A stretch of DNA of 64,000 nt, from NCBI RefSeq assembly GCF_964355755.1, contig NC_092672.1, positions 22,068,501-22,132,500 on the forward strand. Direction: 5' to 3'. The position numbers and the translations under genes are program-made. Source of the DNA: Antedon mediterranea (taxonomy: Eukaryota > Echinodermata > Crinoidea > Comatulida > Antedonidae). Under the pieces are notes generated by a model. It had not been told where the DNA came from, did no database searches, and saw nothing but the letters and a program-made list of their open reading frames with translations. This document shows, piece by piece, positions 11,596-34,142 of this stretch. Each line of letters starts with the position of its first letter. Within the stretch, counting starts at the first letter, position 1.

Positions 11596-12225
11596 TTATA
11601 ACCTAACTGGACCATGATACAGCAAACCAAGTAACACAATACCAAAAGCTATATCAATGGCAGGAGTTGTTGTAACTTGCACAAACTTGTTATTGATGGT
11701 AGTAGTTCCTTGATTTACAGGCTCCCCTTCAACACGTCTACCATTCTGGTGCTCACTAACTATTGGTTTATGTGTAGCACATTGTTCATCTGAGCTCTTC
11801 TTTTGAGATATTTCATCTTTCTTTTGTTCAATGTTAACTATTGTATTTCCTTCACTTCTACCACTATTACAGTTCAGGTTACCATTTTCATGAAATTGTA
11901 TTCTAGAATTGTTATTTACATTTTCTGGTTCTTCAATTTCATTGATGCTTTTATCGGTAAACTTATCTCTCTTGTCTTGATCTTCAACTTCTTTACTGGT
12001 AAACTTATCTCTCTTGTCTTGATCTTCAACTTCTTTACTGGTAAACTTATCTCTCTTGTCTTGATCTTCAACTTCTTTGCTAACATTGCTTGAACTAATC
12101 ACTGACAGGTTACTGTCATGAGGTTCATTATCCAGTGATACTGCTGACAGTATACCTTCTGTTAATATGCTATTGTTTAGTTGCGATTGTTCATCATTGC
12201 ATTCTTGCACATCAGAATCAGCAAA
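11596..12225 (-). CDS. MYO19: MYO19-like exon 23 (tail and C-terminal hydrophobic segment)
   Basis: 209 codons plus TAA. Low-complexity, acidic, Asn/Ser-rich. The unit [14 protein letters not shown] occurs three times in frame (42-bp repeats, 11956-12081). The protein ends [20 protein letters not shown]: a hydrophobic stretch of about 14 residues followed by a short basic tip, the form of a tail anchor. This is unlike the vertebrate MYO19 tail. Anchoring to mitochondria is inferred. Confidence 0.8.
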   Translation of the reverse strand, partial: FADSDVQECNDEQSQLNNSILTEGILSAVSLDNEPHDSNLSVISSSNVSKEVEDQDKRDKFTSKEVEDQDKRDKFTSKEVEDQDKRDKFTDKSINEIEEPENVNNNSRIQFHENGNLNCNSGRSEGNTIVNIEQKKDEISQKKSSDEQCATHKPIVSEHQNGRRVEGEPVNQGTTTINNKFVQVTTTPAIDIAFGIVLLGLLYHGPVRL

Positions 12226-15200
12226 CTGGTAAAAATAAATGTTAAATTGTATTAAATTGTATCAAGAAAAAAAAATATTAGATTAAAAATCATAAACTGA
12301 ATGTTTATGATGTGAATACGGAGAATATTTCATGAAAATTAACTGATTGACCATTTAATGAGGCGGAACCAAGCACAGGCAATCTCTCAGTAAATGAAAT
12401 ATACTCTATTCAACATTATTAGTTTTATAGCACAGTACATATGATGATGTGTTAATTTAACATCATTAAAGTAAGTACATGTAAATGAGGATGTGTTAGT
12501 GATGAAGGAACATACTTCACATTGTAAAGTTTGTTGGTGCAGCGAAGATTGAAAATTGCGAGTTTTAAGTAAAAGCCTACCTCGTCTGAATTCAATTCAT
12601 TTAATTGTTCATCTAACTTGCGTTGGTGTAAACGAATTGAATATCCAATCATAGCATACTGTATGACACGTGCTGCCTCATGTCGTCTCTTTACATCTCC
12701 CCTCACCTTCCAGCCTCTAAAACCTACAACATATCAATTACTAATTAGTGACTCGGCATCATAGCATACTGTATGACACGTGCTGCCTCATGTTGTCTCT
12801 TTACATCTTCTCTCACCTTCCAGCCTCTAAAACCTACAACATATCAATTACTAATTAGTGACTCAGCATCATAGCATACTGTATGACACGTGCTGCCTCA
12901 TGTTGTCTCTTTACATCTTCTCTCACCTTCCAGCCTCTAAAACCTACAACATATCAATTACTAATTAGTGACTCGGCATCATAGCATACTGTATGACACG
13001 TGCTGCCTCATGTCGTCTCTTTACATCTCCCCTTACCTTCCAGCCTCTAAAACCTACAACATATCAATTACTAATTAGTGACTCGGCATCATAGCATACT
13101 GTATGACACGTGCTGCCTCATGTTGTCTCTTTACATCTTCTCTCACCTTCCAGCCTCTAAAACCTACAACATATCAATTACTAATTAGTGACTCAGCATC
13201 ATAGCATACTGTATGACACGTGCTGCCTCATGTCGTCTCTCTACATCTTCTCTCACCTTCCAGCCTCTAAAACCTACAACATATCAATTCTAATTAGTGA
13301 CTCAGCATCATAGCATACTATATGACACGTGCTGCCTCATGTCGTCTCTTTACATCTTCTCTCACCTTCCAGCCTCTAAAACCTACAACATATCAATTAT
13401 AATTAGTGACTCAGCCTCATAGCATACTATATGACACGTGCTGCCTCATGTCGTCTCTTTACATCTTCTCTCACCTTCCAGCCTCTAAAACCTACAACAT
13501 ATCAATTCTAATTAGTGACAATTAGTGGCTTGGTTTGGTAACAGCATGATGCCTGCAAGATATTTGTCAAAACACTATTACAATCAATACCTGCTTGAAT
13601 GATGACCACAGCTGCCTCTTGTTTACTTTTGGTTGCCAGGATCTTCCTCCACCACATCTGTATTACACCAGCACTTAAATTGAATTCCTTCAATCTTGCA
13701 ACTTCAAGTTTATCCAACTAAATGAAAAATAACGGAATATAATAAATATACAATGATGCAGATTCTTACTTACTTTTTACACTGACAAGCTAAAAACAAA
13801 AAGCTAAAAGTATTATAATTTTGTGCTACAACTTTTTAATAATGTTATAAGATAGCAATCTTACTGATTTTCAATGACTTATACACATTTAACTGGGTAA
13901 TAATTTTTAATAAAATGGTATTTTTTAAATTGTGTCAAATTAATTGTTCTTTTCTTTTTTATATTTATATACTTTTTTTAAAAAGAAAAATGCCTCAATT
14001 TTACATAAATATTTAGTCAATTATGGTGAATTTCCTATCTTATACTACAAAAATATTCCTGTAGCACTACTTTTAAAAATAAAGGTTTATTTTACGACAC
14101 TCATTCAGCTCTACTCCAAAGGTTTATATTATACAGATATTGCCTACTTAGAGGTGAAATCCCCGAGGGAATGATATTTTTCTAAGGAACTAAATATTAC
14201 ATCTGTTATATTAAAATATGTAGCAAAGTTTAAGTAGACTTGGCTGGGTCGGCTAGCCTAAGTAATAAGACTGCCTAGTTCACCTTACCTTGCCTAAGTA
14301 ATAAGACTGCCTAGTTCACATTACCTTGCCTAAGTAATAAGACTGCCTAGTTCACCTTACCTTGCCTAAGTAATAAGACTGCCTAGTTCACCTTACCTTA
14401 GTAATAAGACTGCCTAGTTCACCTTACCTTGCCTAAGTAATAAGACTGCCTAGTTCACCTTACTTTGCCTAAGTAATAAGACTGCCTAGTTCACCTTACC
14501 TTGCCTAAGTAATAAGACTGCCTAGTTCACCTTACCTTGCCTAAGTAATAAGACTGCCTAGTTCACCTTACCTTGGCGAAAAATGACCGTATAAAGTCAA
14601 ATAATTGCTAATGATTCCTTTGCCATAAAATATTCACTTAAACTAATTAAAATTTAATTTATTCTACTGCAAATATAAAATAATTAAATTATTATTAAAC
14701 TACTTTTAAGTACCTGTTCCTCTCTTAGGAATATCTTTGTTTTTCCAAACAAAAAGCTTTTCATTTTATTTTCTTTGTCTGCTTCAGCTAAAACCAGATT
14801 CGTAATAACAGCACATTTACTTTTTGTATCCAAATCTTTGATATCTTCTGAGTTTGACCTTATTAATAATTCATACCTCTTAAGGAAATCACTGTACAAC
14901 ATTCTATAAGAAAATTGTCATTATCGTTCAGAATCAAGTATAACAAACAACACACTGGCAAGTATGTTAGTAGGTGTTCAAAATGTACAGTATCCACAGG
15001 GATATATATAGTATATATTATAAACATCACAGGCACAGAATAAATTCTATATCGCCCGGTGATATACTAAAATTTAATTAATTAAACAATAAAGATGAGG
15101 AAATCTGTGAGAATGAGAAAAAGTTGCCCCCACTGAGATTCAAACCCAGAACCTTCTGCTTGATATGCAGATATCCTAACCATTAGACCACTGGGGCTTT

Positions 15201-18200
15201 TCATGGTATTGTTCAAACTAGATTGGATAGCAATAACACTCTCGGTGTGGTACGGCGGAACAGCACTAGTCCTTCAGTTGTATGCACACGCACTAGAGAT
15301 CAAATTGATAGACCCTCATCTTTCAGTATATATATATATATATATGTAAGTCCTAGAGCAAGCTATTTGATTAGTAATAGTAAAAAATACAATAAAATAC
15401 AAATTACGACGCACAACGATTTTGGTTTTTGCTTAATTATTCAATATCAGCGTATCAAAGGAAAACAAATAGCTGTAAGCTGACCTGGTAGAGAAGCCTT
15501 GTACTGATCTGAATTGTTTCAAGTAAACTTAACAAGGGTATCAACCAGTCATAGATGGGTGCATTATTAGTATAAAAAGAACACAAAACAATAGCTGTAA
15601 GCTGACCTGGTAGAGAAGCCTTGTACTGATCTGAATTGTTTCAAGTAAACTTAACAAGGGTATCAACCAGTCATAGATGGGTGCATTATTAGTATAAAAA
15701 GAACACAAAACAATAGCTGTAAGCTGACCTGGTAGGGAAGCCTGTTGCACTGATCTCAATTGTTTCAAGAACACCGCAAGCACGTAGTTGATTTATAACA
15801 TGAAGATTATCAAAGTTGTCTGGTTGACATTCAAGACTTGGTTTGATACAGCGGATGTAGTGAGGTGTTGTTTCATGTAAAGTAGCCATAAGACTGTCCA
15901 ATGAATTCTAAGATACAATTGTTAGATTGTTACCACAAAGATTACATGTAAAAACTAAATGGTATCAACCAAAATATGTAAGTAAGTAAATACAAAATGA
16001 ATTGAGGAAATATGTCTGATAATCAAAAAATAAAATATATATATATTATGTTACATTTTCAATAGAAGTAAAAAAAAAAAATTGTGAAATAATAATAATT
16101 TGAGTGATCTTGCAAATGTTTATTTGATTTATTTCAGCATCATAACAAACAATCTATATAATATACAGGAAACAAAATATGAAACATCAACAATATACAA
16201 AAACAGGGATGCCGAGGATAACCCATAAAAGTCCTTGTTTCCCTGTTTCTCCCCATTTCAAGAAAAAAAAAGGGTCAAGAAAGCAAAAAAAACAACAAAG
16301 TAAAAAACCTATCTAAATTCTAAAGCAAGAGCTCGGTCTTGAAGCTATTTTTTTAATTGATGTTCCATACTAAATTCATCAAGATTCTAAATTAAGTTTT
16401 GTATGAGTTTCAATTTTCAGGATTCTGTACCTTAAATTTTGATACCACTGTAGAAGTAGTCTTTTTGCCTTTTGTTTTACTTGGATTCTGAAAAAAAAAA
16501 TAAAATTAACCTATTTTAGGTTAAACAAAACTATTAACATAACTGACAAGATGCAAAGGCATTATAAATATCACACATTTATTCTTTGTTTAAAAGTTTC
16601 ATGATGTAACATTGATGAAGACAGAACTTAAAAAGCAATGGATTTGAACAATAGAGAAAATGGTGTTAGTATAGTTTTAGTATGGTGTTAGTATGGTGTT
16701 ACTACAGTGTTTGTTTGGTGTTACTAGTGTTAGTTTGATGTTAGTATGGTGTTATTACAGTGTTAGTTTGATGTTAGTATGGTGTTACTACGATGTTTAA
16801 AAACTAATGACAAGATCAATCACCTGTAAACTGGTAACATCAGCATCAACTAGTTGTTGCACAAACTTCTTGCTGCTCATTCTAAGCAAATGTACAAGTT
16901 CTGCTGGAATACCATCCTAAAAACATCAAATGATACACAATAGATCACCTTTTGAACTGCGATAACATTGTAGTTTGACACCGAGCCTTCAGCTATATAA
17001 TAATATTGTATAAAACAACTATAAACTATTTGACTGCTGACCATTGTTTTTATTATTAATGACAGGCTAACCTTTAATTTGTTCCTACTAAATGGCACGC
17101 TCGCTTCGCTCGCGTACCATCTAGGTCGTGCCCACAGATGGTTCTCGAATACACAGTATTTCCAGCGAGAAAAAAATGGAGATTTCAAATGTACGTACCG
17201 CAGGACTATAATACATTGTCGTTTACAGAAACGAATAAATATACACAATGATTTATGTAGTCAACCAAAATTAGCACCCTGTGAATTACTTCCGAGAGAG
17301 AAACAAATTTTTTTATTCGGACTCATTTAAACAAACCCAATTTGTGTTTTGTATGTAACATTAAGGGTTGAGGGATGGGGAAAGAAGATAGGTACAAAGA
17401 GGAAACATTTTAAAATATATTCTTATCCACTCAGTAACGAAATATTGTTTTTAATGTTTTATAGGCCTATAAATAATATACCACTAAATACAGTAAAACA
17501 TTTACGATTTAATACGGTACTTTGTTAAAACTCTCACTGTCATAGTCGATTGAAATAGTAAAGTACATGTAACGATACACCACTACGACGTTTATATATT
17601 TTTAAATTATTAATTAATACAAACGTTGAGAAGCAACTGTCAGTAATAACGTTTATTTATTTGTATATTATATGTTTATAATCTAACAGTAGGGCCTACC
17701 CACACTCACATTAATAAAGTTTATTTGTATATATTTTATATTACATCTAACAGTACCAACACTCACAGTAAGAAATTTGCGATTCAAATTGCGATCAAAA
17801 GTGGTTAATACCTTAACAGTATTGTACAGCATTGCAGTACTATTTATGTTTATTCTCCAAGGGGGCCCATAAATCTAAATCTATACCTCTATGGTTAAAC
17901 CAAATAATTTGGAATGTTTATTTGTATATTATATGTTTATAATCTAACAGTAGGGCCTACCCACACTCACAGTAATAAAGTTTATTTGTATATATTTTTA
18001 TATTACATCTAACAGTACCAACACTCACAGTAAGACATTTGCGATTCAAATTGCGATCAAAAGTGGTTAATACCTTAACAGTATTGTACAGCATTGCAAT
18101 ACTATTTATGTTTATTCTCCAAGGAGGCCCATAAATCTAAATCTATACCTGTATGGTTAAACCAAATAATTTGGAATGTTCCATTCATCACAAATCAATA

Positions 18201-21200
18201 CATTTGTAAAAACGTATATTAAATGTATCAAAATAGTATTTTTTAAAGAAAATCGGCCTGTCTTCAACATTATGATGCTGTACTCGAACTGTTCAACCGG
18301 TTTTCAGCTATTAAAAACAATTATCGTAGGAGGAGATAGAAAAATGCGAAGCCTCCTCGCATTTTTGTGGCGGGTATTTTTCAAGATGGACATCCATTAG
18401 ACAGTGTATACCACGATCGGAAAACACCCCTATTTGGGGCAAATCTTTGAACCTAAATTCGTTTTAATCGTCAATAACTAATTATCTAACTTAATTTAAT
18501 TAGTAAACAGGGTTACATCAGGCGGTTAAAATCAGTACCGAAAGTACGAACCAACTTTACATACCATCGAGTAAAAATTCTAAAAGTAAGGCGCGATTAA
18601 CCGAATTTTGCCCTTACGTAAATTTATATATAGATACACTATGTTGTATTCTAAAGTTGATAGTTAAATTGTCTAGTCCTTCCTCCTTGATCTCACTACA
18701 ATTGTTTTGAATAAATGAGCTAAAATAGTTTAGCAAAAGCAAAAGCTTTTCCCACTTAGGTCGTGTATCCTCTTCTTACACAACAAAAGGTGCTAGAGCA
18801 TTCCCTATAGCTACAAACAGCCATTGATACATTTTCCTGTGGCTTTTATTTTCAGTTATAAGATTATGAGAAATGAGTTTAAACGAAGCAGATGCAGTAT
18901 CCAATAATTGTAATGCTTTGAGAAACTATTTATGACCTTCTATCCCCTTTTTTTGTGAATATACTGTAAAACTGGCTTTCAGTTTTAAGTAGATTACCTT
19001 ATTCTTTTCAATTAGACCATCCACTTGGTACGTAACTTTCTCTGCATAATGATGCACAACAAAAGCTGGTGATGTCACTGACATGTGTGCACGAGATAAG
19101 TTTGCACTGCTGATAGTGTCATGAAGAAACTCACCAAATGAACTTGGATCTGAATGTCTGTTTAACTTGCATTGCTATAAACAAGATAAACTTGCAATTA
19201 GTTCATAGAAAGTAAATGACATAATAACATGATTGTGATCTTAGATGGACAGTCTCCACTAAGCACAACAACTTGTAGTTTGCAACTGGTTGTGGTGCTA
19301 CTGTACTTTTGCACCTAACTTGAAATCACTGGGCATAGGTCACTCACCATCACTGATGTGCAGCAGGTGAATATTTTTAAATTGGGGTTAAGCTTGAGGT
19401 GCAAAAGTACATCACCAGGTTTTCTAGTGTAAACTAGGCTCAAAAGTTCATTGTTTATCTTCTTACAAACAACAGTTTATTTTTATGGAAAGACAAACTA
19501 TGGTTTGTAAGACAAACTATGGTTTGTAAGACAAACTATGCCTGTATGGTAAAAACCACTGTTTCTCAAAATGTCAAATTCAAAATACGAAGGAGTTATT
19601 ATTTTACGACTCACTGTACTACGATTGAGAAAGGCAAATTCTCAATACATCTTTTTTTACAGCAGTTTATCTTTCAATAAAAAGACAAACTACAGAATAC
19701 AGGTCTTTTCCAACCATAATTGCCGAAAAACTATGACAAATTATTTGTTGTATTTTGCTGTAGAATAGCAACACTTACTTGATTCATAAGTGCAAATATA
19801 CTGATGTTGCCTTCAATAACATCAAGACATGTTTTATTGTCAGTAAAGTCTTCAAATTTCCATGGAATTCCCTCAGATTGACAGTCATCCTAAAATAATA
19901 TAAACATGGCTGTTTAATCAGCAGTATAATTATGTTTATAAAGGTTCATCATTATCACTGTTAGAGAAAAAAAGTGAATGATAATTCTCATAAACTTTAA
20001 TTATTGTTGTTATCTTAATTATTTTATATTATATTATAATTATACTAGTATTTTGATATTTTTTTTACAAGATTCATTTGATATAAACTAAAAGAAGTGC
20101 CATATTATTTTTCTTCATTTTTTTTTTAAATAAAAGAACTGTTGTTATTATCACTCTTATATGGTGCTAATAAAACACTGTTGCACCAACTGTATATTAG
20201 CATACTCTATATATAGAAAATAAGTGTGTTGGAATACCTGTTCTGCTTTGAGGAAGTTGTTCACAAAATGTTGCTGAAGCTTCTCATTTGCATAATTTAT
20301 GCATAATTGCTCCAAACTGTTAAATGAAAAACTTTCAAATCCGTAGACATCCAGTAGACCAATGTAAGACTGCCAACTCCTGGCCATGGTACAGCCATTG
20401 ATGAATCCAACGAGCCAATCAAAAACTCTGAAACGTTAAACAATAATTTAGTCACAGTCTTCAAAGCTAGTTTTTTTTTGGTAAAACCAAAGTGGGGTTG
20501 AAAAAGTTTGCATGTAAACATTTTCTCCTGTTACATACTAACTACATGACAAAGAAAGAAATTAGGCAGAAAGAAGTCAGGCCATGACAGCAAGAGAGAT
20601 TAGGCAGAAAGAAAGAAGTCAGGCCATGACAGAAAGAGAGATTAGGCAGAAAGAAGTCAGGCCATGACATAAAGAGAGATTAGGCAGAAAGAAAGAAGTC
20701 AGGCCATGACAGAAAGAGAGATTAGGCAGAAAGAAAGAAGTCAGGCCATGACAGAAAGAGAGATTAGGCTGAAAGAAGGAAGTCAGGCCATGACAGAAAG
20801 AGAGATTAGGCAGAAAGAAAGAAGTCAGGTCATGACAGAAAGAGAGATTAGACAGAAAGAAAGAAGTCAGGCCATGACAGAAAGAGAGATTAGGCAGAAA
20901 GAAGGAAGTCAGGCCATGACAGACAGAGAGATTAGGCAGAAAGAAAGAAGTCAGGCCATGACAGCAAGAGAGATTAGGCAGAAGGAAAGAAGTCAGGCCA
21001 TGACAGAAAGAGAGATTAGGCAGAGAGAAGGAAGTCAGGCCATGACAGCAAGAGAGATTAGGCAGAAAGAAAGAAGTCAGGCCATGACAGCAAGAGAGAT
21101 TAGGCAGAAAGAAGTCAGGCCATGACAGCAAGAGAGATTAGGCAGAAAGAAGTCAGGCCATGACAGCAAGAGAGATTAGGCAGAAAGAAGTCAGGCCATG

Positions 21201-24200
21201 ACAGCAAGAGAGATTAGGCAGAAAGAAGTCAGGCCATGACAGCAAGAGAGGTTAGGCAGAATAAAAATTAAATTAAATTGACTAAGTATTAGAGTTTGCA
21301 TGTATGTATGTTTATTTTATTTTTGTGAATGTTTAAAGGTGTATGTACGATTTGCTGTGGGCAATCCGCCTCAGTGCAGCCCAGCATGCATGGGGAAGCA
21401 AATAAAAGTTATTGGATATGTACAACATCTTCTGTGGGTTTGTTTTGAATGTATAACAGGTCAGTAAATAGGCAAATACTGCACAACAAGAATCATTTTC
21501 AAAAGAGTAAATAGGTTTCTTTCATTACAAACAAATATAGCTTTAATGTTTGTAAAATACCTGGCATAGAGTAACTTTGCAAGACAATCTCTCCTTGTAT
21601 GACATTCATCTTTTAAGCAAGGTTTCATAAAGACACTCTTTCTACGCTTGTGAGATGCAGTGATTTGTCGGAATGCAAGACATCTAGTTAAGGCATCAAC
21701 ATCAAGACCAAGTAACTGTGCAGCAGCATTAACATATGTGGTGTCAACTCCTGATGAAGCAACACCAATAGTACAACAATATGATATATTGAATAATTAG
21801 TAAATTAGAAAATCTCTCTTTGGCTGAAATATTTTATCAACATTTTTTGAAGATGGAGAAGAATATTAATAAGATTATTTAAGATTTTAAAATGACATAA
21901 TTATTAACGATATTTTTTGTATATATTTTTTGGGCAACCTATCGTAATATTAAGCTATTCCTTAGGTCTGTTTTTAGTTATTTTTCATATATTATATTAT
22001 GGTAGAAATAAAAACAAATTAAAAAATACTAAAACGATATATAAACTGTTGATAGAATATTTTGAATTATAAAAAAATGCCAATTTACTTTAGATTTAAA
22101 ATTCTAATAAAATTTAAAAAAACAGTATTATAAATATAAGCTATTAAAACTTTAAGGTCGGAACTACTTTAAGCTGAACTATAAATACTGTATGCAATCT
22201 TAAAGGTTGCAACTACTTTAAGCTGAACTATAAATACTGTATGCAATCTTAAAGGTTGCAACTACTTTAAGGTAAACTATAAATACTGTATGCAATCTTA
22301 AAGGTCGCAACTACTTTAAGCTAAACTATAAATACTGTATGCAATCTTAAAGGTCGCAACTACTTTAAGCTAAACTATAAATACTGTATGCAATCTTTTT
22401 ATTGGTATAATACAGAAAATAATTAAACAGCATAACCTTTATATCATTTACCTTGTTTTTCAGAATCAATTTCACATGGTCCAGTGACATCATCATCACT
22501 AATAAACTCTACATTTCCAAGATGAAGTATACCACTTAGAACCTACAAATAAACACATTTCAAATACAATTCAATAATTCAAAAATAGAATTATAACATT
22601 ACTATTAGATTTATGTATAAAAAACACCACAGTCTATTAAAACACATATTTATATACTGTACTACTAGGTAAAAGTTCACTGATGTTTACTGTCCACATG
22701 TGCTGGATTAGTTAAACCAAGGCATCTAAACACATTGCTTTGGTTCAGTTAGTTCACTGATGTTTACTGTCCACATGTGCTGGATTAGTTCAACCAAGGC
22801 ATCTAAACACATTGCTTTGGTTCAGTTTAGTTCACTGATGTTTACTGTCCACATGTGCTGGATTAGTTCAACCAAGGCATCTAAACACATTGCTTTGGTT
22901 CAGTTAGTTCACTGATGTTTACTGTCCACATGTGCTGGATTAGTTGAACCAAGGCATCTAAACACATTGCTTTGGTTCAGTTAGTTCACTGATGTTTACT
23001 GTCCACATGTGCTGGATTAGTTCAACCAAGGCATCTAAACACATTGCTTTCGTTCAGTTAGTTCACTGATGTTTACTGTCCACATGTGCTGGATTAGTTC
23101 AACCAAGGCATCTAAACACATTGCTTTGGTTCAGTTAGTTCACTGATGTTTACTGTCCACATGTGCTGGATTAGTTCAACCAAGGCATCTAAACACATTG
23201 CTTTGGTTCAGTTAGTTCACTGATGTTTACTGTCCACATGTGCTGGATTAGTTCAACCAAGGCATCTAAACACATTGCTTTCGTTCAGTTAGTTCACTGA
23301 TGTTTACTGTCCACATGTGCTGGATTAGTTCAACCAAGGCATCTAAACACATTGCTTTGGTTCAGTTAGTTCACTGATGTTTACTGTCCACATGTGCTGG
23401 ATTAGTTCAACCAAGGCATCTAAACACATTGCTTTGGTTCAGTTAGTTCACTGATGTTTACTGTCCACATGTGCTGGATTAGTTCAACCAAGGCATCTAA
23501 ACACATTGCTTTGGTTCAGTTAGTTCACTGATGTTTACTGTCCACATGTGCTGGATTAGTTCAACCAAGGCATCTAAACACATTGCTTTTGTTCAGTTAC
23601 TAAGTTTAACCATGTTTTACCAGTGAATTCACTCTTTCCTGGTAAAACAATGTTTGTTAAGTAACCAGTTCTAATTAAGTAAAAGTTTCTTACTTTAAAT
23701 AATTCTTGTTGCTGTGACCTGCTAAAGTCCAACATTAGCCATCGCTTACTAACTAATTAAGTAAAAGTTTCTTACTTTAAATAATTCTTGTTGCTGTGAC
23801 CTGCTAAGTCCAACATTACACATTGCTTGCTTTGTAATTATAAAATCTTGTTTATCCTTTTGATTACATGCATCTTCTGAACGGTTTAGTTTCACATAGT
23901 TTAAGTTGTCTGAACTCAATACATTTGGTAGTAACCAGTTCCTCATTTCCCTTTCATTTCCGCCAAACAGCATCTATGATAATTTGAAAGAAGAAATGTT
24001 AATGATATTATTAAAAAGACTAATAATGAGAATATAAACTAATAATATATTTCATGCTTTGATAACATTAGTAGAGTGAGTGCTTTCTTGCCCTATATTA
24101 CAAAATATTACAAAGTGACAATTTTGTTTCAAGATGTTTAATATCAGTACCAGAAAGATCCTTTTCACATCTGCCTACATTGATCTCCAGACTTATTACA

Positions 24201-27200
24201 TGTTTTCATATTTACTCACGAACCTTGTGAAATCACGGGAGAAGTATTGTCATTGTACAGTTGGGGGTGCTATCATTAGCGCAACCTCAAGTTTGTGAAA
24301 AAAAAACGTCACGCTCCGATACTTTCAAACAGGTGTGCGGTCAGTTAAATACCAGGACAAAGCACAAATGCGCAGAACAAACAAAAAAACAAGCCCCTGT
24401 GAATATCAGTAGAATTTTAACAACCTGATTACAACCAAAGGGTATATGTTTGCTATTAGCCTACTCACTTTAGAAACATGGCAACAGAAATAAATTGCAG
24501 GGTTTTCTCTAACCTGCAGAAAATATGCAAATGTATCACAGTTCCAACAGTTAAGTTAAACAGTTGGTTATCCGGTTTAAAGGTACACAAAAATGAAACA
24601 TAACTAATACTAACTTGGTAAAAGATGTGAAAATTCCTGGCACCATCACATTGATAAACAACTCTAGTTTTCTCAAGAAGATATGTCTGAATAGAAGCAC
24701 CAACAACATGATTTCCACTGAAAACAAAATTGGAAAGTTAAAATAAGAATTCCTCTTGTGTGTAATTTCATTCTTCCCTGCTATGACACACAAAATGGCA
24801 TATGTAGAAACACTTGAACATTGACAAATAAACATAATGTATGAAACTTACTGACTGAATTGTAGCTGAATGTACTTTCCAAAGCGGCTACTATTGTGAT
24901 TCCTGGTTGTGCTAGCATTGCCTAAAAAAATGAAATAATAGTTGTCTAACAGAGATGGAGTTGTAGGGAGGTGTAGGGTACTGGGTGGCAAAAGATTAAT
25001 ATTACTGTATATATATATATACTGGTACAGGCCATCAAATATTGCCATCAATTGCAATTAATTCTACTAGTCTTAATGATACCAAATCTGCCAAAAATTA
25101 AATTTGAGCATAAAATCTCACGAAATTCATATTTAGAACATACTGTAAGTTGGCCACTGCTGATCAACAGTTTTAGCCTATATATTATATTAGGAGTTTA
25201 AAGGATTTTGGCACCATGACTGAAGGTTAAAGATTATGCTAGAATTACAAAATGTAAAATCAGTACACAAACTGCTTTAAATTAGCATTTTAAATTTCAT
25301 TTTACATAAAGCGTTAATCAATTTTAGGTTAGGTGTAGCTTTATTTATTTATTTTTAAATCAGTATGATACTTATTGACTTTTATATTTCAGTTTTCTCA
25401 GGGAAGAGTTAAATTACAATTTAATTTAACTCTTCCCTGGTTTTCTTGTAATTGTAATGGTACACTATCATTATGCTCATTTTTATTTGGTTCTCATCTC
25501 TTTATCGACTGTTCTTATTCTATTTTTTTCTTTATCTGTTGATGATAATGATGATGAATATAGAAAATTTGATATATTGATATGATTTAAAAATGCTGAT
25601 TTTGTATATTTAACAAAAATAAAGGTGCTTCTTCTAGCGATGTTTCTTAGGACCATAACAGTACATAGATGTTTTTACATTTGAGAATGACATGTGTATC
25701 TTACTGTACTTTATTAAAGATAAACATAATAATTACCAAATGCTTCAAGAATAGGATTTGAGTCTAATATTCTACGTTCAATGCAATCTGCTGGTGATGG
25801 TGTAAAACCACTATGAACAAAAAGACAACAAGTTATCACAAATAAGTAACAAAACAGAGACAAATCTATAATTATGATGAAATAAAAACTGTAATTTTAC
25901 ATACATGAGAGTGTTTAATGATATTAAATTAAATGTGTTTATTTTTATTACCCAGGGTTACATACTGCCACCATTGTCAGATATTTTAGTAAACATCTTG
26001 CATTCCATGTCTGTAATAAAACAATAATAAATAACAGAGAATAACAAACGTTTTTGTATTTTCACAAAAAATATTGACAAACTGCCTTTGTGAAAATGGG
26101 TTGCCAACATTCCCTCTTTGCACGTCTGGCAAGCATTTATGTGACATTCAATAAATGCTGATTTTGTAACAGTGTCCTTTGAAACAGTAAAAACAAATTA
26201 TAGCACTCTCTATTACTTGTCCATGCTTTTAGCCTCTCTATTTTTATTCAAGTTTGGGCCTCTCTATTATTTTAAAATAAACAAGAAATGGTTTTAAAGG
26301 TAAAAAATTGACTCTGATTACATTGGTGAAAACAAACGTAAAACAGAAATTGTTGAATTACCTTTCCAGAACCACTTTCACCGCTGACAATTATTGACTG
26401 ATTAATCTTGTCTAGTCTTCTAGTAAGATTACACAAAGCTGTTTCTGCAATTCCAAATACATGTGGTGGGTGTGCCTGAAAAAAAAAAAATAAAGATGTA
26501 TATTCCCCAAAAAACATGAAAATGAGGATTAATAAAATCAAGCCATTTTGCTGTTTTAAAAAAGTTATTCATTTTAAAGAAATAAAAACAAACAAATATA
26601 GTGTTTTTACTTTAAAAAAAGACAAAATTAATGGTTAAACTTAACCAAATGTTAAAAAATTACAGTTTTTCAGGTAAATAATGTTTTTTTTTCCAATTTT
26701 TGGTCAAAGTGAATAACTACAGTATTATGTGACATAAAATAGCATATTCAGCAAAACAATTATCTTTTCAGAGGAGCTCTGCATATATCTCTAAGTTCTC
26801 ACTTCTAAGTGCAACTGAGGACATATTAATATTTTTGCCCAATATTGAAGATAAAGTGAAGTCAAGATTTTAATAGTGATGTCACCAACATATCAATTTT
26901 CCTAAAAATCAATAGTATACTAGCAAATTATTGTTTACCTTTTGATCACTATGGTAACGATGAATCATATGAACATCAAAATGTCCAGTTTCTTTGAAAG
27001 GATTTAAAGTAACAAGGGTGTTGCCAGTCTGAGTGTGGTATCTACCAGCTAAGTAGCGCTCACGTAAACAGTTCAGCACTATGAACAGAAAACATTAGAA
27101 GTAACAAGTGTGTTGCCAGTCTGAGTGTGGTATCTACCAGCTAAGTACCGCTCATGTAAACAGTTCAGCACTATGAACAGAAAACATTTTGTTAAGTAAC

Positions 27201-30200
27201 AAGTGTGTTGCCAGTCTGAGTGTGGTATCTACCAGCTAAGTACCGCTCATGTAAACAGTTCAGCACTATGAACAGAAAACATTTTGTTAAGTAACAAGTG
27301 TGTTGCCAGTCTAAGTGTGGTATCTACCAGCTAAGTACCGCTCATGTAAACAGTTCAGCACTATGAACAGAAAACATTTTGTTAAGTAACAAGTGTGTTG
27401 CCAGTCTGAGTGTGGTATCTACCAGCTAAGTACCGCTCACATAAACAGTTCAGCACTATGAACAGAAAACATTAGAAGTAACAAGTGTGTTGCCAGTCTA
27501 AGTGTGGTATCTACCAGCTAAGTACTGCTCAAGTGTGTTGCCCATATTTTGTCAAATTTTCTTCAAATTATTTGCTGTTCTACTCTAAAAATGTATTACT
27601 GAACTATAAATTTTATTTTAAAGTGAGTATTTAATTTGGAAAAATTTGAAGGAAAATGTTGGATTCATCCAAATTGTGGTCTTTGATCTCTAATTAGTTA
27701 GAGGGAGGCAACAGCTAATGGTAAAAAATAGGTGATCATCTGGCTTTAAATTAGATTGAGCTTTTAATTAAAGGGGTCTTTAATAGAAGGAAGACCTGTA
27801 TAGTAGTAACAACCATTGAAACATGTGTCTACTATTAATTCGCTTACCAGCAGGTTCTGAGAGAGGATTAATCAAGACAAGATCATCTGTATTGATCCAA
27901 TCTGTTTGAGTACACAGCACTGGATAGCCAGCATGACCACGTATCACAACCTCCTAGACAATGAAGTTACAAGCAATATTTAAAATACATTATATAGAAT
28001 ACTTAGTAGCAAGGTTGGGTTGTTGACATAGATGGTATGCTTCCCTCCCCTCCTTACCTCACAATTATATTTTGTGTCTATAATCTTGCCATCACTAAAA
28101 CATGAATCAACACACGCTGGAACCCAAACCTCTTACCTGGCCATTAGATTTAGTGACTATAATCTTGCCATCACTAAAACATGAATCAACACATGCTGGA
28201 ACCCAAAACTCTTACCTGGCCATTAGATTTAGTGACTATAATCTTGCCATCACTAAAACATGAATTGACAAATGCTGGAACCCAAACCTCTTACCTGGCC
28301 ATTCGATTTAGTGACTATAATTTTGCCATCACTAAAACATGAATTAACACACGCTGGAACCCAAACCTCTTACCTGGCCATTAGATTTAGTGACTATAAT
28401 CTTGCCATCACTAAACATGAATTAACACACGCTGGAACCCAAACCTCTTACCTGGCCATTAGATTTAGTCACTATAATCTTTCCATCACTAAAACATGAA
28501 TCAACACATGCTGGAACCCAAACCTCTTACCTGGCCATTAGATTTAGTGACTATAATCTTGCCATCACTAAAACATGAATTAACACATGCTGGAACCCAA
28601 ACCTCTTACCTGGCCATTCGATTTAGTGACTATAATCTTGCCATCACTAAAACATGAATTAACACACGCTGGAACCCAAACCTCTTACCTGGCCATTAGA
28701 TTTAGTGACTATAATCTTGCCATCACTAAACATGAATTAACACACGCTGGAACCCAAACCTCTTACCTGGCCATTAGATTTAGTCACTATAATCTTGCCA
28801 TCACTAAAACATGAATCAACACACACTGGAACCCAAACCTCTTACCTGGCCATTAGATTTAGTGACTGTAATCTTGCCATCACTAAAACATGAATTAACA
28901 CATGCTGGAACCCAAACCTCTTACCTGGTCATTAGATTTAGTGATTATAATCTTGCCATCACTAAAACATGAATCAACACACGCTGGAACCCAAACCTCT
29001 TACCTGGCCATTAGATTTAGTGACTATAAACTTGCCATCACTAAAACATGAATTAACACACGCTGGAACCCAAACCTCTTACCTGGCCATTAGATTTAGT
29101 GACTATAATCTTGCCATCACTAAAACATGAACTAACAGTTAACACACGCTGGAACCCAAACCTCTTACCTGGCCATTATATTTAGTGACTATAATTAGGT
29201 ATCCCAATGAAAAAATTCAGATTAATTTTTTTACATTTTCTTTCAGTTAACCATAAAGAACTTAATGTAATTAGCATTTTGCGATTTAAATGATTGAAAT
29301 CCGATTACCCGTTCTAAAGTTATGGTTATTTAAAGTGGTAAAAAAATATACGATTTTTTGCCTAAAAATGGTGTTTTTTGCAGTTGAAATTGGAAGCATT
29401 TTTAAAAGGTTATAACTTTTACAATAATTAGTTAAAAGTTTTGAATTTTGTTAAACCTATAGATATCACAGAGTTGTACAACTCTATTTTTTTTGGAGCC
29501 TCAACGAAACCTATTTTTTAAATTATTGGTCCGCAAAGTGGTAGGAAAGCATTTAACGCCCATTTTTGCTGGAATTCCCTAAAAAATGAAAAAACTGCTA
29601 TTTTTCAATGATCTGTAACTTTTGAACTACTGTACTAATTCATTTAATTTTTTTTGTACTTGTTAGAATGTAGTGTATATTTCATTAATAAATATATTTT
29701 AGATGTGTATATGAAAAAAAAAAATTTTTTTAATGGTGAAATTTAAAATTATAAAAAGAAAAAATGAAAAAGTATGTTAAAAACGGTGTGTACTGTTTCT
29801 TTTCTTTTACACTAATTTTCGGTAAGTATAATTATTAGAATATTTTAATATACTTTATATTTATAATTTCAATCATAAATACTATTATATATAACTTTTG
29901 AATACGTAAAACAAGATTTTAGGCCCATATGATTATGACACCAAATCTAAGCCGGGCTGCTAAGTAAGATATGCTCTTTTAAGGCAAACGCACAATATGG
30001 GTCAAAATAAACTCATTTTATGTTAATTAAAACAATTAATTGTTTACCTGAATAGTATATATAACATTATAAAAATTGTTTTCTTTTCGTATTATTACGT
30101 TATTAAATTGAAATACGGAGCTAAAGTTTAGGCCAAGTCACGGCTTACTCGCGATCAGTAGTCGCTCCGTTAAAGTATTTCGGTCGCAGTTAATGACTTT

Positions 30201-33200
30201 CGGCCGCCGTATACAGAGTCAAATGTAACGTTGGTAAATTAGCTTAATAAATTTCCTCGGTACATTTTAACCTAACGCATTTGCATTGTATACTTGCATA
30301 ATAAATCTTCCGCACATTACATCAATTTTAAGTTGTTAAATTAATGTGTAAAACCAGATATTCTACGACGGAAAAGGACATGTCAATCTCCGACATCGCT
30401 GCTGTCACACATCTCGCGTCGAGCCGGTCGAACTCGAGCGAGGAAAACTAAACAACGTGTTCAAAATATGGAACGTACCATTCGCTGATAGGGTGCATTA
30501 ATGTATTTAACGGAAAACGCCACAACAAACACGCGCGTATTTTAGAGTACAATATTTTACTCACTACAATATTCACCGGATTATAATGGTTGGATCTTTA
30601 AAATTTTGAACGGGATTTACGCCTCATGCACCATTTTAAAATGTAGTTCGCTCAATTACCATGCACAATACGTTTGTAAACTATGTTTTATCGATTTCAA
30701 TGTAGATTTAGCTATAATTTAATACCAAAATCCATAATATTTTTCCATAAACGGTGAATCAAAATTGGATTTTTGTCACAAAAATTGACTTTTCGTTACG
30801 AAAAACCTATTTATAGAAGACGATTTTCGTATCAAATTAAAGCTTATTTAAAGCCTGATAACATACAACAAAAATTAATCCGCTAGCTCCAATGGTAATC
30901 GTGCGATCGTGTTTTGAAAACTGATGGGGATTTTCCGATGAGGTTTTCAACGCGCGGAAATCGGCTCGACGGGATTTTAGAACCGTTTTAAAATCGCATT
31001 TTCTCGGCAACTAATTCATTAATTTTAATTATAAACACACTTATACATAGATTAAAACAAGTACTTTCAAACAATATAAATTTTGTAAGTATTAATTAAG
31101 ACTGAATACGATTTATTTAACATCAAAGTCATACTACTTTTTCGAATTTCGTCAATATTTCAAAAGTGATACCCCTCTGTGCGCTTTCATTGGGATACCT
31201 ACTATAATCTTGCCATCACTAAAACATGAATTAACACACGCTGGAACCCAAACCTCTTTTTCCTCATGTATCCACACCATTAACCCCTGAAAGTACAGTA
31301 AACAGTTCATTATTCAATTCAATCAACTTTTATTATCCACAATCTGATTCTTTTGGTTGTGGCAGACTCACAAATGTAAACAAACATTTAAAACAAACAT
31401 TTAAAATACACATCTATACAAATTATTGCTAAAGAGTAATTTTTGTAAAGTCTAACAGCTTTCATAATAAATTATTCATTTGGAGCTTTGAGGACTAAAA
31501 TATGTATTGAAAAGAGGATGTGTTTCATTTTGAAGGATCTAATAGTAATTATTCTGTATATAATTCTTTATGTTAAAACCATTCATGAATACGTACATGT
31601 GTGACGTTTCAACTTGTTTTTAACAAGTCAGGCAATGACTATTTGTAATTTGTAATAGTCTGTGATTTTCCGAAGTTCTTTGCCTTTTTAGGGGGCGCTA
31701 ATCTACAACTAGCAAAGCTACAGTACTCCTAGCAACTACTAACATCTAGTCAGTTGCCAGATGAAGACTTATTAAAAACAAGTTGAAACGTTGCACATGT
31801 ACGTATTATTTTTAAACAATCTACTGACTTAAAGAAGGGCTAGACGGATGGAATTAGTAAATTAACCAGCCATGTGTGGGCAACCATTTCATTCCATGTT
31901 TTAATACCCTAATGACTAACTGTGCCAAGTGTCAGAATTTTCACTTCAGGTCTACTAAAGTAGGCCTACTATGCATGACAGAGAGAATATCAACAGCATT
32001 TTCCTTTACCTTTTTGAAACGACATGCTGGTTTCTTTTTAACTTGTGGTGGAATGCATCTAGGCCTATTTTTGGTAATAATCTGAAAAAAATAGCGAAAT
32101 GCTAAATTTTTACAAACAAATTTTTATGAACATATAACCAGTTGTGACCTAGCCTAGCTAGGAATTTAAATGGTCATTTGGCCCTATACTACTATTATAG
32201 CCTAGACAGGCCTGCCTACAGTACTAAGTACTAGGAACAGGCTTTTGCAGAAAAGTGTAGTCGGTCTGATTTGATTTGAATTGATTAGAAAATCATCATA
32301 AAAAATACATACAAAAGAAAGTGATAACATAAATTACTGACATTACAAATAATACAATTATAAAAGATTTTGCAGGATAGCCCAAAAAGCTTAGGCCTAA
32401 ATAAACATTCATCCCTTATATATAGTACCAAACAAATATTGACCAGAACCAGCAATCAACAACGCTCCATACCGAACACCCGATTTTATTGGAACCAAAA
32501 TAAAACATCGATTTGACCATATATCAAACATAAAACTACCACATTGGGCCCTGCGCTAATACGATCGGGCCCAGCAAATGAGACGATAGAGACCAAACTG
32601 GTTCCTAACACATGAGACGATCGGGCCAACGCATGAGACGATCGGGACCACATTTTCTGGGCCCAAGACGATCGGGCAGCAAATAAAAAAATTTTACTGT
32701 GATAACCGGCCTAGACTTCGGTTAGGCCTAATATAGTAATAATACGATTTCGATCCAAGTCGGCCCTAAACCGTCTCGGCCAAAGTCAAGTCGGCCCCAA
32801 GTAAACCCCAAGTCAAGTCGGCCCCACGTCAAGTCGGCCTCAAGTCAACTCGGCCTCACGTCAACTCAGCCAAAAAATAATCGGTCAACTCGGCCCCATT
32901 AAAGTATGGAACGCAAAAAGTGCAAATGAAGAGGATTGATAAAATAATATTTCTTCACAATTTTTTAACTATGAATAATTCTGACTTTTAATGAATATTA
33001 ATATTTAGACAATAATATATTTAGCAACAAAAACAGGAATGATTTCACCAACTTTCCTTTATTTACGTTTAATAAAATTTCAAATTGCACAATTGAAAAC
33101 AATTCGTAGCTGCGCCTCCCTGTGCATTTGGCAGCTTTTTCGATATCTACAACTGCTATGTGTTTTCGCTGACCGGGGGATTCCCCTTTTTTTAAAACGC

Positions 33201-33849
33201 AAAGTATGGACAAAAACGATGTACGATCATTTTTTCTATGGCCAAATGTGATGGAACCTAGGCCTCCGTCTTCGATTTACTAAATGCAATAGGCCTACCT
33301 GCACATGTTTTTGTAACACGCGGGTACTTCTATTCATATCGGCAATGAGTTCATTTTTTTATATGATATTATTATATTATATTTTTCATTTCTTCATTTT
33401 TTAGAGTGGATAGGCCTAGGCCTAGTAATAATCATAATAACATTAAGTACTTTTTGCGTTCCATACTTTATTGTGGCCGAGTTGACCGATTAGTTTTTGG
33501 CCGAGTTGACGTGAGGCCAAGTTGACTTGAGGCCGAGTTGAGTTGAAGCCGACTTGACGTGGGGCTGACTTGACCTGCACCCAATAATACCCTACCCAGG
33601 CCTACCTACCTAGCCTAGGCCTAGTAGGCTACTAGCTAGGCTATGATTGATAGCCTAGAGGAGGAGTATAGGCTAGCCTGGCTGGCCCTAGCCTAGGCCT
33701 AGATTTATTGCACCTGACCTGCATTATCCTACATAATTGCCTGTACCTAGCCTAGCTAGGCGCCGCCTAGTAATTGCATTAATTTAGTAACTTACTTTTT
33801 TGCCTACTGGAATGTAATTATTGCTGTTTTCCATCAAAATAGTTGTCAT
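11596..33849 (-). CDS. MYO19: Unconventional myosin XIX-like motor, 23 exons, about 1087 aa
   Basis: Actin-based ATPase motor; vertebrate MYO19 moves and tethers mitochondria. All reconstructed junctions are GT/AG and keep phase. Landmarks by residue: P-loop GESGSGKT 191-198, switch [10 protein letters not shown] 249-257, switch II DVYGFE 485-490 in the MYO19-like context [15 protein letters not shown]1 region [18 protein letters not shown] about 711-728, converter [14 protein letters not shown], three IQ motifs about 800-870, tail 879-1087. The tail is acidic and polar with a 14-residue triple repeat, ending in hydrophobic [15 protein letters not shown] see nothing like the vertebrate mitochondrial-anchor (MyMOMA) domain, so family identity rests on the motor. 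Exon 3 is interrupted by a transposon. The start codon is 293 bp from the OGFOD2 start. Confidence 0.85.
12581..12714 (-). CDS. MYO19: MYO19-like exon 22 (IQ2, IQ3)
   Basis: The acceptor is the AG in TTTTAGAG, not the earlier TTTTAG, which would give an immediate stop. Reads [20 protein letters not shown] then [12 protein letters not shown]. The exon's 5' half and acceptor are the founder of a roughly 109-bp array (12715-13505). Confidence 0.85.
12715..13505 (-). repeat. About 109-bp minisatellite founded on exon 22, about 7 units beyond the exon
   Basis: Every unit repeats the acceptor and the [12 protein letters not shown]-coding part of exon 22, plus intron. Some units carry base changes. 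Confidence 0.95.
13591..13717 (-). CDS. MYO19: MYO19-like exon 21 (IQ1, start of IQ2)
   Basis: [12 protein letters not shown] ... [20 protein letters not shown] then AVVIIQA. One IQ motif is complete and the second starts; these bind light chains or calmodulin. Ends phase 1. Confidence 0.9.
14250..14577. repeat. 36-bp minisatellite, about 9 units
   Basis: Unit contains GTAATAAGACTGCCTAGTTC; intronic. Confidence 0.95.
14714..14903 (-). CDS. MYO19: MYO19-like exon 20 (converter)
   Basis: [16 protein letters not shown] ... [13 protein letters not shown], the 'F..RY..L' and 'G.TK.F.R' converter motifs. Phase 0. Confidence 0.9.
15125..15197 (-). tRNA. tRNA-like sequence (possible SINE head)
   Basis: 73 nt with A-box-like TGGTCTAATGGTTAGGATA and B-box-like GGGTTTGAATC. 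It folds as a cloverleaf: anticodon stem TCTGC/GCAGA with loop ATATCAA (apparent anticodon AUC), T stem CTGGG/CTCAG with one G-U, acceptor with an A-G mismatch and a terminal G-U. AUC is not a normal animal anticodon and the body resembles Glu/Asp tRNAs, so a pseudogene or SINE promoter is more likely than a working tRNA. Confidence 0.5.
15479..15729 (-). repeat. About 121-bp tandem repeat founded on the exon 19 donor
   Basis: Two full units share CTGACCTGGTAG and the end of exon 19; the coding match decays with distance. Confidence 0.85.
15729..15907 (-). CDS. MYO19: MYO19-like exon 19 (SH1/SH2)
   Basis: [18 protein letters not shown] ... [20 protein letters not shown], strut and SH helices. 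Ends phase 2, donor GTCAGC. Its last bases and donor recur in two further decayed units at 15479-15723. Confidence 0.95.
16431..16487 (-). CDS. MYO19: MYO19-like exon 18 (loop 2)
   Basis: [19 protein letters not shown], a Lys-rich loop 2 followed by the 'TV.SKFK' helix. Phase 0. Confidence 0.85.
16824..16916 (-). CDS. MYO19: MYO19-like exon 17
   Basis: [20 protein letters not shown], following the usual 'KD.IP.EL..LL' order; lower 50K domain. Phase 0. Confidence 0.85.
17494..17602 (-). repeat. Dispersed repeat, copy 2 (inverted partner at 4499-4612)
   Basis: Reverse complement of the first copy. Lies inside intron 16 of the myosin gene. Confidence 0.75.
17655..18176. repeat. 261-bp tandem duplication
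   Basis: Two near-identical copies; GGGCCTACCCACACTCACA occurs at about 17693 and 17954. Intronic. Confidence 0.9.
18998..19174 (-). CDS. MYO19: MYO19-like exon 16
   Basis: 59 codons from [20 protein letters not shown] to [20 protein letters not shown], the 'F.V.HYAG.V.Y...G..EKN' region. Phase 0. Confidence 0.95.
19490..19545. repeat. Short tandem repeat, about 3 copies of ACAAACTATGGTTTGTAAG
   Basis: 19-bp units, each partly palindromic; intronic. Confidence 0.7.
19779..19889 (-). CDS. MYO19: MYO19-like exon 15
   Basis: [20 protein letters not shown] then [17 protein letters not shown], the relay loop 'I.W....DN..CLDLIE' region. Phase 0. Confidence 0.95.
20238..20427 (-). CDS. MYO19: MYO19-like exon 14 (switch II, relay)
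   Basis: [10 protein letters not shown] ... [20 protein letters not shown] then [15 protein letters not shown]. Switch II DVYGFE and the relay helix start. '[12 protein letters not shown]' is the strongest MYO19 signature here. Phase 0. Confidence 0.95.
20555..21260. repeat. 37-41-bp purine-rich minisatellite, about 18 units
   Basis: Unit contains GTCAGGCCATGACAGAAAGA. Open frames on both strands through it arise from the repeat and are not genes. Confidence 0.95.
21561..21750 (-). CDS. MYO19: MYO19-like exon 13
   Basis: [20 protein letters not shown] ... [15 protein letters not shown], covering the 'RD.LAK.LY..LF' helix of myosins. Ends phase 2. Confidence 0.95.
22150..22396. repeat. About 48-bp minisatellite, 5 units
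   Basis: Unit contains AACTATAAATACTGTATGCA; intronic. Confidence 0.9.
22452..22542 (-). CDS. MYO19: MYO19-like exon 12
   Basis: [18 protein letters not shown] then [12 protein letters not shown], the conserved 'ILHLGN..F' helix. Ends phase 1. Confidence 0.95.
22672..23600. repeat. About 79-bp minisatellite, 12 units
   Basis: Unit contains GTTCACTGATGTTTACTGTC, very homogeneous; in myosin intron 11. Confidence 0.95.
23686..23830 (-). repeat. About 73-bp duplication of the exon 11 3' end and donor
   Basis: The real exon end and its GTAAG donor are repeated downstream with a one-base insertion in the coding part. Confidence 0.85.
23776..23973 (-). CDS. MYO19: MYO19-like exon 11
   Basis: 66 codons from [20 protein letters not shown] to [10 protein letters not shown], upper 50K region. 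Donor GTAAG. The exon's 3' end and donor are duplicated just downstream (23686-23830). Confidence 0.85.
24615..24717 (-). CDS. MYO19: MYO19-like exon 10
   Basis: [17 protein letters not shown] then [10 protein letters not shown], the conserved 'LEK.R...[11 protein letters not shown]' region. Phase 0. Confidence 0.95.
24852..24921 (-). CDS. MYO19: MYO19-like exon 9 (switch I)
   Basis: [20 protein letters not shown], switch I with NSSRFGK intact. Ends phase 2, donor GTAAGT. Confidence 0.95.
25399..25439. repeat. Perfect 18-bp palindrome, 5-bp loop
   Basis: CAGGGAAGAGTTAAATTA is mirrored by its exact complement. It is related in sequence to palindromes at 49281 and 52163. Confidence 0.85.
25737..25810 (-). 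CDS. MYO19: MYO19-like exon 8
   Basis: [24 protein letters not shown]; the 'I..SNP.LEAFGNA' loop of myosins continues into exon 9. Ends phase 1. Confidence 0.9.
25952..26010 (-). CDS. MYO19: MYO19-like exon 7
   Basis: [19 protein letters not shown], helix after the P-loop. Ends phase 2, donor GTAATA. Confidence 0.85.
26362..26475 (-). CDS. MYO19: MYO19-like exon 6 (P-loop)
   Basis: [14 protein letters not shown]...[15 protein letters not shown]. The ATP-binding P-loop ends at the exon edge, and the Thr is supplied by exon 7. Ser replaces the usual Ala in GESGAGKT. Confidence 0.95.
26490..26765 (+). repeat. Dispersed AT-rich repeat, copy 1 (partner at 62363-62660)
   Basis: Shares ordered blocks with the second copy: GATGTAT..TCCCC, AATGGTTAAA.TTAACCAAA, TTTTTCAGGTAAATA and TATGTGACAT.AAAAT.GCATATTC. 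MITE-like. Confidence 0.65.
26939..27078 (-). CDS. MYO19: MYO19-like exon 5
   Basis: Reads [20 protein letters not shown] then TLVTLNPFK..., matching the myosin 'R...Y.T..G..L...NPF' start of the motor. Its acceptor and 5' part are the founder of the array at 26999-27530. Confidence 0.9.
26999..27530 (-). repeat. About 94-bp minisatellite founded on the exon 5 acceptor, about 6 units
   Basis: Each unit repeats TTCATAG then the TGCTGAACTG start of exon 5 and about 80 bp of its coding sequence. Confidence 0.95.
27848..27953 (-). CDS. MYO19: MYO19-like exon 4
   Basis: [20 protein letters not shown] followed by [15 protein letters not shown], the pre-motor segment with the family's DDL..NP motif. 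Ends phase 1, donor GTAAGC. Confidence 0.8.
28076..29195 (-). repeat. 79-bp minisatellite founded on the exon 3 donor, about 14 units
   Basis: On the minus strand each unit carries part of exon 3 (..VTKSNGQ) followed by GTAAGAGG. The array continues across the transposon at 29196 to the founding exon copy at 31202-31255. Confidence 0.95.
29169..31286 (-). CDS. MYO19: MYO19-like exon 3, split by a transposon
   Basis: Coding parts are 31286-31202 and 29188-29169, 105 nt in all (35 codons, phase 0 to 0), once the 2-kb insert and its 7-bp duplication are removed. It reads [20 protein letters not shown] then [15 protein letters not shown], resembling the SH3-like subdomain that precedes myosin motors. 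Donor GTAAG at 29168-29164. Reading straight into the insert hits a stop after about 14 codons. The symmetric phases mean that skipping the exon would keep frame. Confidence 0.7.
29196..31201. mobile_element. 2006-bp non-autonomous TIR element inserted in MYO19-like exon 3
   Basis: Perfect 17-bp inverted ends TAGGTATCCCAATGAAA and its complement. CTATAAT is duplicated on both sides (29189-29195, 31202-31208), and the intact site is visible in neighbouring array units. AT-rich, with no transposase frame. A 7-bp duplication fits P-like or Dada-like groups, but the family is unassigned. Confidence 0.9.
31591..31805. mobile_element. 215-bp foldback MITE
   Basis: 32-bp inverted arms beginning ACGTACATGTG, with 2 mismatches and about 150 bp between them. 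In myosin intron 2. Confidence 0.8.
32010..32081 (-). CDS. MYO19: MYO19-like exon 2
   Basis: 24 codons, phase 0 to 0, a basic segment [20 protein letters not shown]. Acceptor TTTTTTCAG, donor GTAAAG. Confidence 0.6.
32560..32695. repeat. Subterminal-type repeat array with core GACGATCGGG
   Basis: Four or five imperfect units such as ATGAGACGATCGGGCCAACG. Resembles the end of an element like those at 32753 and 41544, but I found no inverted partner. Confidence 0.6.
32753..33583. mobile_element. Element B: TIR element with AAGTCGGCC subterminal arrays
   Basis: About 110-bp inverted arms (32811-32921 and 33448-33575) built of short repeats such as GTCAACTCGGCC, each ending in a fixed AAAGTATGGAACGCAAAAAGT. 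The core at 33168-33235 (GCTGACCGGGGGATTCCCC...) is shared with elements C and D. No transposase. Located in myosin intron 1. Confidence 0.8.
33796..33849 (-). CDS. MYO19: MYO19-like exon 1 (start)
   Basis: ATG at 33849 in good context (AAAATGA), reading [18 protein letters not shown], 18 codons, phase 0, donor GTAAGT. An in-frame ATG lies upstream at 34017, but its reading has no support and overlaps the promoter. Confidence 0.65.
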
Positions 33850-34142
33850 TTTGATAGGCGCGCCTCCTCTCTCACTTACCCAAAACCAACAGTTCCTTTT
33901 TTTTTTTTCAAAAACACCGCCGCGCGCGCCACCTATAATAAAGTATCTAATAAAAAAATAAAAAAACCGCTGTGTACCGCCCTCTCTGTTATGACTCGGT
34001 GACCTTAAAATAAACAACAGCTATTTAATTACACAATGTTTTTTGCTATGATTTTTGCGATCAATCAATCACACGCCACAAGCCAAGCTTTAGCTAGGCT
34101 ACAGAACAGTAAGCATACAGTTACGTAGGCCTAGAAAATAAA
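33850..34142. promoter_or_regulatory. Divergent (bidirectional) promoter between MYO19-like gene and OGFOD2
   Basis: 293 bp between two opposite start codons. It contains GC-rich patches (GGCGCGCC at 33857-33864, CGCCGCGCGCGCC at 33918-33930) in otherwise AT-rich DNA. No clear TATA box for either gene. The role is inferred from geometry. Confidence 0.6.

Follow-up and report, generated by a model that had tools for sequence, protein, structure and literature searches.

A young non-autonomous DNA transposon in exon 3 of one of about 20 amplified myosin loci in the crinoid Antedon mediterranea: a recent and probably tolerated insertion

Insertions of hAT transposons follow the target pattern nTnnnnAn with a target-site duplication (TSD) of 8 bp, and their excision leaves altered copies of that duplication behind; in maize, Ds elements that sit in exons can be spliced out using a donor in the Ds end. 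Galileo, a member of the P superfamily, is described with a 7-bp TSD of palindromic consensus GTANTAC (PMC4168063). Dada elements have a TSD of 6-7 bp and a transposase with DDE and DxxH motifs, and according to PMC3706591 those with clear ends sit in small-RNA genes, Dada-U6 and Dada-U1 being without terminal inverted repeats (TIRs). The C/DxxH group of DDE transposases is described as including hAT, P, MuDR, Kolobok and Dada (PMC3706591, PMC9587614), and for introners, some of which are of a DNA-transposon type, family median lengths of 30-654 nt are given (PMC9860276). Here we compare these systems with a 2006-bp element found in a stretch of 64,000 nucleotides of A. mediterranea (NC_092672.1, positions 22,068,501 to 22,132,500; hereafter the window), where it lies inside coding exon 3 of a minus-strand myosin gene. 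We hold with high confidence that a young non-autonomous transposon inserted, with a 7-bp TSD, into exon 3 of one of about 20 amplified myosin loci. The features at the insertion are these, in window coordinates and with a slash at the splice position:

11596..33849, minus strand: host myosin gene, from its last coding exon to its first, limits approximate (manual model from open reading frames (ORFs), splice sites and the Myosin_head match)
31202..31286, minus strand: exon 3, 5' part, 85 nt; acceptor AG ends at 31287
31202..31208, no strand: second TSD copy, CTATAAT
31185..31201, minus strand: right TIR; its gene-sense start, TAG/GTATCC, is a possible splice donor
29196..31201, no strand: non-autonomous DNA transposon, 2006 bp, recognised by 17-bp TIRs, 7-bp TSD and family copies
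29196..29212, plus strand: left TIR, 17 bp, TAGGTATCCCAATGAAA
29189..29195, no strand: TSD copy CTATAAT, which reads ATTATAG in gene sense and could serve as a splice acceptor
29169..29188, minus strand: exon 3, 3' part, 20 nt after the TSD; donor GTAAGAG from 29168

The two TIRs are complementary at 17 of 17 positions (100%), and the element contains no long ORF, the longest stop-to-stop frame wholly inside it being 58 aa. With the element and one TSD copy taken out (31286-31202 joined to 29188-29169), exon 3 is an open stretch of 105 nt with phase 0-0, bounded by the acceptor TTTCAG and the donor CAG/GTAAG. The adjacent exons are intact, as are their splice sites, and the exons of this gene copy that were examined are open. 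An earlier note on this DNA had described the insertion, an element of 2006 bp whose inverted ends (17 bp) and flanking duplication (7 bp) are perfect and which splits a 105-nt exon that could be skipped without loss of frame; our analysis confirms it. The joined exons of the gene match Myosin_head in Pfam (E 3.4e-51), a match that denotes myosin heads in general, the MYO19-like label of the earlier note being a tentative one, and exon 3 gives matches below the cut-off to N-terminal SH3-like models (SH3_19, E 5.6e-05; Myosin_N, E 0.0014). A literature search that combined gene duplication and genome assembly with myosin XIX found no papers.

The element belongs to a large and homogeneous family. 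Its exact 17-bp TIR occurs 200 times in the genome, compared with no occurrence of the reversed sequence used as a control, and among the best 40 of 403 first-look candidates, which were scored in a DNA search, there are at least 37 full-length copies (this one included) of 98-100% identity. An exact 7-bp TSD flanks 36 of the 37 full-length copies listed, the exception being L035. Over 39 exact-TSD sites, which include three longer copies with nested DNA, the target follows the motif nTnnnAn, with T at position 2 in 36 and A at position 6 in 38; the duplicated words are varied and AT-rich, and the targets are dispersed. Given its TIRs, the constant 7-bp TSD and the empty paralogous sites described below, the element is a cut-and-paste DNA transposon of the TIR order. 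The 7-bp TSD with T at 2 and A at 6 is a likeness to Galileo, in which these two positions follow from the consensus GTANTAC. The median copy differs from the family consensus by 0.35%. For the present copy, comparison with the consensus of the 37 shows 6 differences over 2006 sites, and it has one private substitution, so the spread of the family is very recent. Lone TIRs also adjoin more diverged pieces of the element, about 78-97% identical. At one other copy (L027) the element lies, as judged by eye, some 14 nt upstream of a WD-repeat-like exon (Pfam match below the cut-off), near its acceptor.

The host gene is one of many. The start of exon 3 with its surroundings, 239 bp in all, has full-length matches at 18 loci, 94-100% identical and 17 of them on one strand; every one lies on C3 from 19.63 to 25.13 Mb, a span of 5.5 Mb with the window inside it. 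The peptide of the P-loop exon is found at 20 loci in the same span (19 on one strand, two matches partial), and nowhere else in the genome at E <= 0.001 among 25 candidates. Sequence from both ends of the myosin gene also recurs there. The earlier note placed the transposon in a coding exon, and this stands; its mention of a full-length myosin gene suggested a single gene, an impression that gives way to one of 18-20 near-identical loci. All 17 of the other exon-3 loci carry the empty site. Among them is a sister paralog (L057, L074) that, compared with window positions 24211-33950, shows 24 mismatches in 7740 aligned bp (0.31%), a count possibly inflated by shifts of array register; the alignment is also interrupted by small gaps, and at two places the sister has about 80-90 bp that the disrupted copy lacks. 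In the eight other exons that were compared, the two copies do not differ. A GAG at codon 8 of exon 3 sets this pair apart from the rest of the 18 loci. Since all 17 of these loci are empty, the closest copy included, the insertion is very young. It is younger than the duplication that made the sister, because the sister is empty, diverged by 0.31%, and carries in common with the disrupted copy the insert in unit 2 of the tandem array listed below. The recent date proposed earlier is thus borne out, both by this comparison and by the single private substitution in 2006 bp.

A search for an autonomous partner took in 12 TIR pairs spaced more than 2.1 kb apart and 14 lone TIRs. Most of the wide pairs seem to owe their extra length to other DNA nested in the element, and several carry further ORFs, one of which (in L075) has no Pfam match. 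Only one pair (L077, C5:15267899-15276018) combines a long ORF with diverged element sequence:

L077:60-8179: 8.1-kb relative of the element; ORF 2040-4712, 891 aa

This relative has the same TIRs and an exact 7-bp TSD, GTTTAAC, and its similarity to the 2006-bp element is at the ends, over positions 1-302 at 68% and 1381-2006 at 86%. The 891-aa protein gives a single, weak coiled-coil-like match in Pfam (Takusan, E 0.012) and a weak SMC similarity in NCBIfam (E 0.0012). No known transposase model of either database matched it, solved structures gave nothing meaningful (best E 0.85 with an alignment profile), and viral_contigs held no relatives. It does have diverged relatives elsewhere in the genome. 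An alignment with six such relatives or pieces has only four invariant columns, and the order DGT, TMxDR, CxxH and a late E can be seen by eye in most of the rows that cover the region; for these six other proteins or pieces no transposase model was found in Pfam either (seven queries from six loci). Judged by its motifs, the protein fits the C/DxxH group of DDE transposases as a candidate member, unclassified as to family. The order D, D, CxxH, E, read by eye, is one likeness to hAT (Ac/Ds), and a stretch of the form GTGTTA-AC-TGTTAG in array unit 2 is another; the differences are a TSD of 7 rather than 8 bp and the lack of any match of the protein to the hAT dimerisation model at E <= 1. No P-element model of Pfam matches the protein at E <= 1 either; the likeness to Galileo is one of the TSD. 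Dada, as described in PMC3706591, is alike in TSD length (6-7 bp, compared with 7 bp here) and in pairing DDE with DxxH where our protein has a DDE/CxxH-like order, but the present family differs from it in its 17-bp TIRs and dispersed targets. All 14 lone TIRs match the element at the TIR end, and no transposase was recognised at them (ORFs were listed for seven of the 14, and two were compared with Pfam: that of L047 had no match, and that of L043 is a dynein stalk exon). An origin in hAT was also sought by way of PF05699 and rejected: among the positions compared by eye (100 of 200, 87, and 100 of 113 in the three TIR lists), none of the 59 genome matches lies inside a TIR pair, and one match, at C7:14241614, is about 1 kb outside such a pair.

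In the explanation that we favour, the element entered exon 3 of one myosin locus by cut and paste, duplicating a 7-bp target; the transposase that moved it would have come from a longer relative, for example the 8.1-kb element on C5 (C5:15267899-15276018). The disrupted copy would by default be left without normal mRNA. Such an insertion would be tolerated because near-identical paralogs remain, and the event looks recent and probably tolerated, not like the loss of an essential gene. The exon is split, as the earlier note had it; what that note implied for the gene is softened by the amplification, by the empty paralogs and by the 3 of 17 other loci that have an exon-3 lesion of their own. 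Some points weigh against our explanation. The empty sites are those of paralogs within one assembly and not alleles of the disrupted locus, and two loci with the P-loop exon (C3:21670184 and C3:23206759) have no exon-3 match, which leaves the insertion site unread there. The paralogs were compared over the exon-3 stretch, and the sister also over exons 1, 2 and 4-9. The 8.1-kb relative may be a cousin of the 2006-bp element and not its source, since it matches the element over positions 1-302 and 1381-2006 only and no known transposase model recognises its protein. Finally, it is from the DNA sequence that we infer the effect of the insertion on the mRNA.

Read through into the element, the frame runs for 15 codons after the junction codon and then meets a stop, close to the 14 or so claimed earlier. 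The mRNA might retain the element and stop early, skip exon 3 in frame, or have the element removed as an intron; by the sequence, skipping and the early stop are the likeliest. That exon 3 is skipped and a shortened, working myosin made is an unlikely outcome on our estimate: the length of 105 nt, the phase 0-0 and the intact adjacent exons and splice sites all favour it, but skipping would delete 35 residues, part of the SH3-like N-terminal subdomain to which the Pfam matches below the cut-off point, and might destabilise the motor. It is possible, with somewhat less than an even chance, that the host copy was already free of constraint as a decaying paralog, in which case the insertion would be neutral whatever it does to splicing. 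Decay has its precedents: among the 17 other exon-3 loci there are two with a frameshift and one that has lost its acceptor AG. Over the 16 loci of undamaged exon-3 length (the disrupted one included) amino-acid changes are seen at seven codons and silent changes alone at three, the exon offering 85 sites for non-silent and 20 for silent change. Against this stand the open exons of the host copy, the identity of its eight other exons with those of the sister, and the 14 of 17 other loci at which exon 3 is intact. A misplacement of the element into the exon by the assembler we consider hardly credible: a tandem array in a multi-copy gene is hard to assemble, but the TSD is perfect and has the length and motif usual for the family, the junctions are clean and the TIR pair is intact.

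A different kind of alternative is that the transposon acts as a mobile intron, spliced from the TIR donor TAG/GTATCC (from 31198) to the TSD acceptor TTATAG/TC (to 29189), which would remove 2010 nt and add one valine codon (IIVTK to IIVVTK). The join is in frame and without a stop. With scores of 4.0 (donor) and 1.49 (acceptor), the two sites fall within the leave-one-out range of the gene's own sites (2.85 to 9.92 for 17 donors, -4.87 to 13.75 for 16 acceptors) as given by small matrices built from hand-placed sites, and one native donor, CAG/GTATTC, comes near the GTATCC of the TIR. The target preference, moreover, often sets an AG beside the element: among the TSDs of 38 other sites there are 13 with a final AG and 19 with an initial CT, so an acceptor made by the TSD will often be present by chance. 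Introners of the DNA-transposon type with one splice site of their own and the other from the TSD are described in PMC9860276, together with cases in which codons are added, and in this the present element would resemble them. The difference is that introners are many copies acting as introns, while here a single exonic copy is seen, with weak sites, and an element of 2 kb exceeds the introner family medians of 30-654 nt cited above. Only one native donor of the 17 scores below the TIR donor, and only two native acceptors of the 16 score below the TSD acceptor; the two sites rank 11th of 116 GT sites and 13th of 77 AG sites in the element and its flanks; stronger sites lie inside the element (donor 10.46, acceptor 12.78). 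Nor is there a sign of the family spreading as introns, as inspection by eye of the junctions at the 38 other exact-TSD sites, with six junction ORFs compared with Pfam, showed no convincing coding exon. Because the sites are weak and no other copy in a coding exon was recognised, an introner reading is possible but not favoured, and splicing between this donor and this acceptor seems to us quite improbable. The broader proposition, that the element is a ready-made animal mobile intron with a 5' splice site in its TIR, a 3' splice site made by its nTnnnAn target, and a DDE/CxxH transposase outside the Pfam families, is one to which we give little credence. If it were true, exonic insertions would be removable with the gain of one codon.

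The locus amounts to a natural experiment, in which one copy of an exon has a fresh transposon and 17 near-identical copies in the same genome have none. It also offers a case for testing whether donors borne by TIRs and acceptors made by TSDs let animal DNA transposons start as introns. It is of interest for how young the event is, for the unclassified candidate transposase and for the surroundings, and the amplification to about 20 myosin loci, together with the minisatellites on exon-intron boundaries, is arguably more surprising than the insertion itself. The repeats concerned are:

28053..29195, minus strand: tandem array, 79 bp x 14.4; the end of exon 3 recurs in the units together with its splice donor, intronic beyond the first donor
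29126..29145, minus strand: second array unit, with 7 extra bp (GTGTTAACTGTTAGTTCATG) that it has in common with the sister paralog only, among the 18 loci
27007-27531: minisatellite, 95 bp x 5.6, including the exon 5 acceptor (boundaries by eye)
12648-13519: minisatellite, 110 bp x 8, over an apparent IQ-motif exon (boundaries by eye)

Exon 3 is the first unit of the 79-bp array. Array and exon together have the exact donor motif 14 times and the target word CTATAAT 12 times, and the native acceptor is present in unit 1 only, so that an insertion at CTATAAT in another unit would be intronic. A bypass of the element by splicing into the downstream units was considered on paper and set aside: these have no native acceptor, and the alternative sites shift the frame or are without a pyrimidine tract. 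Unit 2 reads GTGTTA-AC-TGTTAG, compared with GTGTTAG in several other copies, and the extra stretch looks like the excision footprint of a transposon with a 7-bp TSD, slippage being the alternative. The length of the array varies between gene copies, as it is contracted to one or two units in two paralogs (L066, L070). At about 23580-23760 the end of a further exon and its donor are, by eye, present twice in tandem. Elsewhere in the amplified region, C3:23746032-23752126 is an array of about 6 kb made of a repeat of about 64-66 bp, which is also present once within window positions 8800-11900.

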